From assembly GCA_029098505.1 (NCBI GenBank), contig JAQXOE010000002.1, forward strand, positions 1 through 64,000: a stretch of 64,000 bases of DNA. The letters are read 5' to 3'. A model generated the notes under the pieces. The model ran no database searches, was not told the origin of the DNA, and saw nothing but the letters and a program-made list of their open reading frames with translations. Positions 63,682 to 64,000 of this stretch are shown here, piece after piece; within the stretch, counting starts at the first letter, position 1; each line of letters opens with the position of its first letter. The position numbers and the translations under genes were made by a program. Source of the stretch: Bacteroidales bacterium. GTDB lineage: Bacteria; Bacteroidota; Bacteroidia; Bacteroidales; UBA932.

Positions 63682-63712
63682 CTTGATTTATTAAATTCTT
63701 TAATTACCTTTG
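63682..63712 (+). promoter_or_regulatory. Predicted promoter of the pheA leader (CTTG-N19-TACCTTTG)
   Basis: Consensus -7 box with a near-consensus -33 box at 19-nt spacing, just upstream of the leader ORF. Confidence 0.7.
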
Positions 63713-63720
63713 TCCACGAT

Positions 63721-63777
63721 ATGTGCAACAGGTATTCATATAGCTTTTTCTTTTACTATTTTCAGAAAAGGAAATAG
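63721..63777 (+). CDS. Putative Phe/Tyr-rich leader peptide MCNRYSYSFFFYYFQKRK
   Basis: ATG TGC AAC AGG TAT TCA TAT AGC TTT TTC TTT TAC TAT TTT CAG AAA AGG AAA TAG; 8 of 18 residues are Phe or Tyr. Confidence 0.75.
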   Translation: MCNRYSYSFFFYYFQKRK

Positions 63778-63811
63778 CCGGATACAGTGTGCACATTTAT
63801 GAGAAAAACAG

Positions 63812-63846
63812 AAGCTGCCCGGAAGTGATTCGGACAGCTTTTTTTT
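63812..63846 (+). terminator. Intrinsic terminator/attenuator in the pheA leader
   Basis: AAGCTG-c-CCG ... CGG-a-CAGCTT followed by a T tract, ~55 bp before the pheA ATG. Confidence 0.8.
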
Positions 63847-63899
63847 AATCCTAAACGATATTGATTTTTCAAGTATAAAAACTTGACCAACACTTACTT

Positions 63900-64000
63900 A
63901 TGAAGAAGGTAGCTATACAGGGCTTTTCCGGATGCTTTCACGAGGAAGCTGCCAGGAAATACTACTGGGACGAAGATTTGCGGATGGTTGAATGCGACAG
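63900..64000 (+). CDS. pheA: Prephenate dehydratase (N-terminus only; runs off the window)
   Basis: MKKVAIQGFSGCFHEEAARKYYWDEDLRMVECD matches the IQGxxGxxHxxAA start of Bacteroidota prephenate dehydratases. Confidence 0.8.
   Translation, partial: MKKVAIQGFSGCFHEEAARKYYWDEDLRMVECD

Follow-up and report, generated by a model that had tools for sequence, protein, structure and literature searches.

At the end of the 64,000-nucleotide stretch of Bacteroidales DNA analyzed here (the window), a compact series of elements precedes pheA, all on the + strand. A Bacteroidota sigma-A -7 box, TACCTTTG, at 63705..63712 fits TAnnTTTG perfectly and gives a predicted transcription start at about 63717; a weak -33-like element, CTTG, lies 19 nt upstream of it (63682..63685). 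The leader ORF, MCNRYSYSFFFYYFQKRK*, occupies 63721..63777 and consists of 18 codons plus TAG, with a predicted 5'UTR of about 4 nt. A terminator stem of -14 to -15.5 kcal/mol follows at 63810-63842 together with eight T's (63839-63846), and pheA (prephenate dehydratase) begins with the ATG at 63900, runs to the window's end at 64000 and extends to 64721 in the contig. The neighboring gene upstream (63237-63641) is divergent, on the - strand, so the + strand terminator is not directly behind any + strand gene. A check of the sequence bore out the sequence-only reading, which had described a promoter, a Phe/Tyr leader ORF and a terminator at these positions ahead of pheA, and confirmed its equal count of four Phe and four Tyr in the leader. 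Past the window the operon runs pheA, aminotransferase, tyrA and DAHP synthase/chorismate mutase, with functions judged by eye from the translations. The gene set had been named correctly and its order had not, as tyrA stands before the DAHP synthase/chorismate mutase gene. By gene content, this is an operon for Phe and Tyr biosynthesis.

The leader is a short ORF enriched in codons for the very amino acids that the downstream operon makes, and an intrinsic terminator separates it from the first structural gene. Its F/Y density is beyond chance: eight F/Y in 10 codons never arose in an ATG ORF when the upstream 300 nt were dinucleotide-shuffled 3000 times, and at least six in 10 codons occur at 87 of 119 loci, versus 0.9% of shuffles. 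To follow the element through relatives, we sampled pheA loci from the genus, the order and then the phylum, with 55 in the genus and 64 in other Bacteroidales. An F/Y leader precedes pheA at 28 of the 55 genus loci, 62 of the 64 other Bacteroidales loci and 18 of 19 loci from other Bacteroidia orders (L136-L154). A terminator follows the leader in 26 of 28 cases in the genus and 57 of 62 in other Bacteroidales, so the conserved pairing of leader and terminator that the sequence-only reading had proposed seeking upstream of pheA is found in relatives. Phylum loci outside class Bacteroidia are mostly without a leader, which is present at only 2 of 21 (L155 and L174); both have a Bacteroidia-type PheA start (AIQG), and at most other non-Bacteroidia loci PheA is of another type.

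About half of the genus loci are without the element, which counts against attenuation. At 24 of these 27 loci, an open frame of at least 124 codons reaches pheA, and no leader-bearing locus has one. The long frame abutting pheA suggests that the element is lost when pheA moves behind another gene, and attenuator loss seems to accompany such relocation. At one relative's locus (L030), the -7 box is directly followed by a terminator upstream of pheA and the leader ORF is missing; this is probably a decayed attenuator copy.

The predicted start of the leader transcript is unusually close to the leader itself. In the sections cited here of a Flavobacterium psychrophilum transcriptome study, TAnnTTTG is placed at -12 to -5 (PMC9723704), which would put the start near 63717, 4 nt ahead of the leader AUG at 63721. 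In 20 of the 26 genus leaders with a box, 16-17 nt separate the TA of the -7 box from the ATG; in other Bacteroidales leaders this interval mostly measures 23-46 nt, and among the window's genes the 17 that have a box show at least 19 nt. In the genus, the sequence around this interval, TAnnTTTGnnnCCGTTATG, is conserved. The spacing backs the earlier suggestion, made from the predicted start site, of a near-leaderless leader, and the 4-nt 5'UTR would follow from the position of the -7 box. Few transcripts in mapped Bacteroidota are leaderless or have very short 5'UTRs: those under 10 nt make up 3.7% in B. thetaiotaomicron (PMC7366714), and leaderless transcripts are put at 5.5% in the cited sections on F. 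psychrophilum (PMC9723704). The genus shows no conserved -33 box, and TTG at such spacing is only sporadic in relatives. A scan for an E. coli-type sigma-70 promoter gave no match, as expected for Bacteroidota, for which that model is not relevant.

The leader transcript has a complete system of three mutually exclusive pairings, 1:2, 2:3 and 3:4, in which leader codons pair with a stop-codon arm and the stop-codon arm with the terminator 5' arm. Region 1 (63721..63737) lies inside the leader ORF, spanning codons 1-6 including the AUG, and pairs with 63780-63796 in region 2 (63778..63796), immediately 3' of the leader stop codon, as a protector or anti-antiterminator. Because region 1 contains the AUG in the window, this hairpin would hide the start codon too. 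Two antiterminator segments of region 2, CCGG at 63778-63781 and CAGU at 63785-63788, pair with region 3 (63810..63823), the terminator 5' arm, where their partners are 63814-63817 and CCGG at 63819-63822. Region 4 (63829..63846), identified from sequence and folding, comprises the terminator 3' arm (63829-63842) and the U-tract. The complete leader fold has a z of -4.45.

The sequence-only reading had called for a search for an alternative antiterminator fold; both an antiterminator and the 1:2 protector were found, and both covary. A CCGG-bearing antiterminator arm, partnered by the terminator 5' arm, lies 0-7 nt past the leader stop in 26 of 27 aligned genus members, and in other Bacteroidales it is often within the last leader codons. 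Within the genus 2:3 helix, column 0 is A-U, U-A or C-G and column 5 is A-U, G-U or G-C. Since CCGG is a palindrome, shuffling of region 2 gave little control in the genus, and partner-swap permutations took its place; anchored regions replaced an automatic terminator finder that in L009 and L017 had picked the antiterminator as terminator. Related loci are non-independent and permutation figures therefore not strict probabilities, but region 2:3 in other Bacteroidales gave -11.9 kcal/mol with its own partners versus -8.4 when swapped (0 of 5000 permutations as good), with a weaker contrast in the genus (121 of 5000), and region 1:2 gave -17.7 versus -13.5 kcal/mol (0 of 5000), a covariation seen in the genus. 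At about -8 to -11 kcal/mol and interrupted by an internal loop, the window's antiterminator is one of the weakest in the genus; being less stable than the terminator (-15.5), it would have to win kinetically. Equilibrium folding with a complete terminator favors the terminator (P = 0.99) at any stall position, and only a calculation on nascent RNA is informative.

We therefore modeled masking by a ribosome with an assumed footprint of about 29 nt on nascent RNA ending before the terminator 3' arm, with kinetics ignored. In the window, A-site stalls at codons 1-11 give the 2:3 antiterminator in this model and those at codons 12-19 abolish it, which makes Tyr5, Tyr7 and Phe9-11 the predicted control codons. 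A ribosome at the stop codon would mask region 2, with termination predicted, and without a ribosome the 1:2 protector would form. All 27 modeled genus members form the antiterminator for some stall positions, and in 25 of the 27 a ribosome at the stop codon abolishes it. The computed antitermination window of each of the 27 includes Phe as well as Tyr codons, a result that favors the dual Phe/Tyr sensing suggested earlier. Two outcomes count against attenuation: stalls at Tyr12, Tyr13 and Phe14 lead to termination in the model, and some relatives form 2:3 even without a ribosome.

Taken together, conservation, the antiterminator, the 1:2 protector and covariation support the original reading, and the element is very probably a ribosome-mediated transcription attenuator that senses Phe and Tyr and controls the Phe/Tyr biosynthesis operon. 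We infer that the leader is translated, that ribosomes stall on it and that Phe and Tyr regulate the operon. RNA polymerase would start about 4 nt ahead of the leader AUG, with a ribosome trailing through the leader. When Phe-tRNA and Tyr-tRNA are plentiful, the ribosome would cover region 2 from the stop codon, or leave so that 1:2 pairs; with region 2 covered or bound by region 1, the 3:4 terminator would form and transcription would end before pheA. When Tyr-tRNA or Phe-tRNA is scarce, a stall at Tyr5, Tyr7 or Phe9-11 would cover region 1, region 2 would pair with the emerging region 3, and the operon would be transcribed for want of a terminator.

Some of the same features could arise in other ways. 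The leader peptide's composition is conserved, as might be expected if the Phe/Tyr-rich ORF encoded a small peptide with its own role and a constitutive terminator set the basal pheA level. We consider this very improbable, as the peptide sequences vary widely, whereas F/Y content and stop position are retained along with region 2 and the terminator pairing, all covarying with one another, and tandem units repeat the same architecture. An intrinsic terminator with an alternative fold ahead of an amino-acid operon would also suit a T-box or metabolite-sensing riboswitch governing the terminator, with the ORF incidental, an idea made scarcely credible by several observations. In an Rfam scan of the leader, no family reached its gathering score; the best leader-type match, to RF01859 (Phe_leader), gave 16.8 bits (E = 3) against a cut-off of 55 and was taken as a chance match, and no T-box was among the Rfam matches at E up to 10. 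The switch 5' arm also lies inside leader codons, leaving little room for an aptamer.

Attenuation might instead be real and sense Phe or Tyr alone, with the other codons carried by a need for U-rich sequence. Phe-only leaders do occur at some distant loci; that of L054, MTYKNNNGFFFFFFGSKPGEGLL, is one, save for a single early Tyr. This reading is nonetheless unlikely given that Phe and Tyr share the antitermination window in all 27 genus leaders and that two or more Tyr occur in 64 of the 68 other leaders. An attenuator responding to both amino acids is the reading we retain.

We also observed related leaders, at pheA and elsewhere. Two F/Y-rich leader ORFs stand in tandem before pheA in L034, L035, L038, L044, L051, L057, L059, L090, L095, L100, L105 and L106, as well as in L149, L153 and L154. 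At the Bacteroidales tandem loci, each leader has a predicted terminator, and a nearby TAnnTTTG box, if any, is found only before the first. Such paired F/Y leaders in series may be tandem attenuators. His-run leaders precede hisG in 13 of 14 genus genomes (L122-L135), several of them only 12-17 nt from the -7 box, and speak in favor of attenuation at pheA as well; the hisG leader of the window's own genome, MNIVVRTYFHHHHFLRNW (L125, about 1219-1275), is followed by a strong hairpin. In other Bacteroidales, short WWW-containing ORFs lie upstream of a chorismate-binding-family (TrpE-like) gene (L177, L180 and L182). Four pheA leaders (L046, L053, L061 and L098) have Trp within or adjoining the F/Y run, as in NFFGFWFYFFYT, and possibly sense all three aromatic amino acids. 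The window's own genome (G000) has no match to PF00425 (TrpE/PabB/MenF family), which, in an assembly 97.6% complete, is not proof of absence. Chorismate would then mainly feed Phe and Tyr; the missing PF00425 match suggests that this genome has lost other branches from chorismate.

Ribosome-mediated attenuation is textbook knowledge for Proteobacteria, and examples are also known from Actinobacteria and some Firmicutes. To our knowledge, hardly any have been documented in Bacteroidota, a phylum that is dominant in the gut and makes little use of Shine-Dalgarno sequences. With its computable codon window, a pheA attenuator spread through the class would allow direct tests of translation-transcription coupling in Bacteroidota, including whether near-leaderless starts can drive attenuation there. 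Leaders of the phe, his and trp type may also account for short ORFs upstream of biosynthetic operons that are otherwise left unannotated.

The closest classical counterpart is the pheL-pheA system of E. coli and other enterobacteria, with which the window element shares a Phe-rich leader ORF, a choice between antiterminator and terminator, an intrinsic terminator and pheA next. Unlike that system (RF01859), the window leader has as many Tyr as Phe and does not match the covariance model; here the operon is polycistronic with tyrA and DAHP synthase, the start is predicted to be near-leaderless, and the phylum is different. We found no description of a pheA attenuator in Bacteroidales in the open-access literature searched, and leader-like sORFs in B. 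thetaiotaomicron 5'UTRs have been noted in general terms (PMC7366714). The cited sections on F. psychrophilum report structured 5' elements upstream of pheA and hisG that lack Rfam matches and are present in other Flavobacteriaceae genera, with "strong clues" for leader-peptide attenuation upstream of amino-acid operons (PMC9723704). Those sections give no leader sequence or switch mechanism for the pheA element, and the element described here is from Bacteroidales and class-wide.

Leader ORFs at or near the transcript 5' end are known from C. glutamicum ilvBNC, whose hairpin H1 is proposed to block leader initiation and to act as an anti-antiterminator (PMC11857589); by analogy, region 1:2 in the window would do both. 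Mycobacterial leaderless poly-Cys ORF attenuators (Canestrari et al. 2020, via PMC13236596) also have the ORF at or near the 5' end, and, unlike the element here, are described in the cited portion of that source as translation attenuation (PMC13236596). Both systems are from Actinobacteria and involve different amino acids. On balance, we lean slightly toward an ancestral family of dual Phe/Tyr pheA attenuators in Bacteroidia, unlisted in Rfam, near-leaderless in the genus and doubled in series elsewhere, apparently behind one promoter; with the AUG inside the 1:2 hairpin of the window species, a free leader would both terminate and block new ribosomes. Attenuation as a kind is known, and a pheA attenuator is hinted at for Flavobacterium in the cited sections (PMC9723704); what our analysis would add is a covarying switch, a dual Phe/Tyr window, a class-wide range, tandem copies and a predicted near-leaderless variant.
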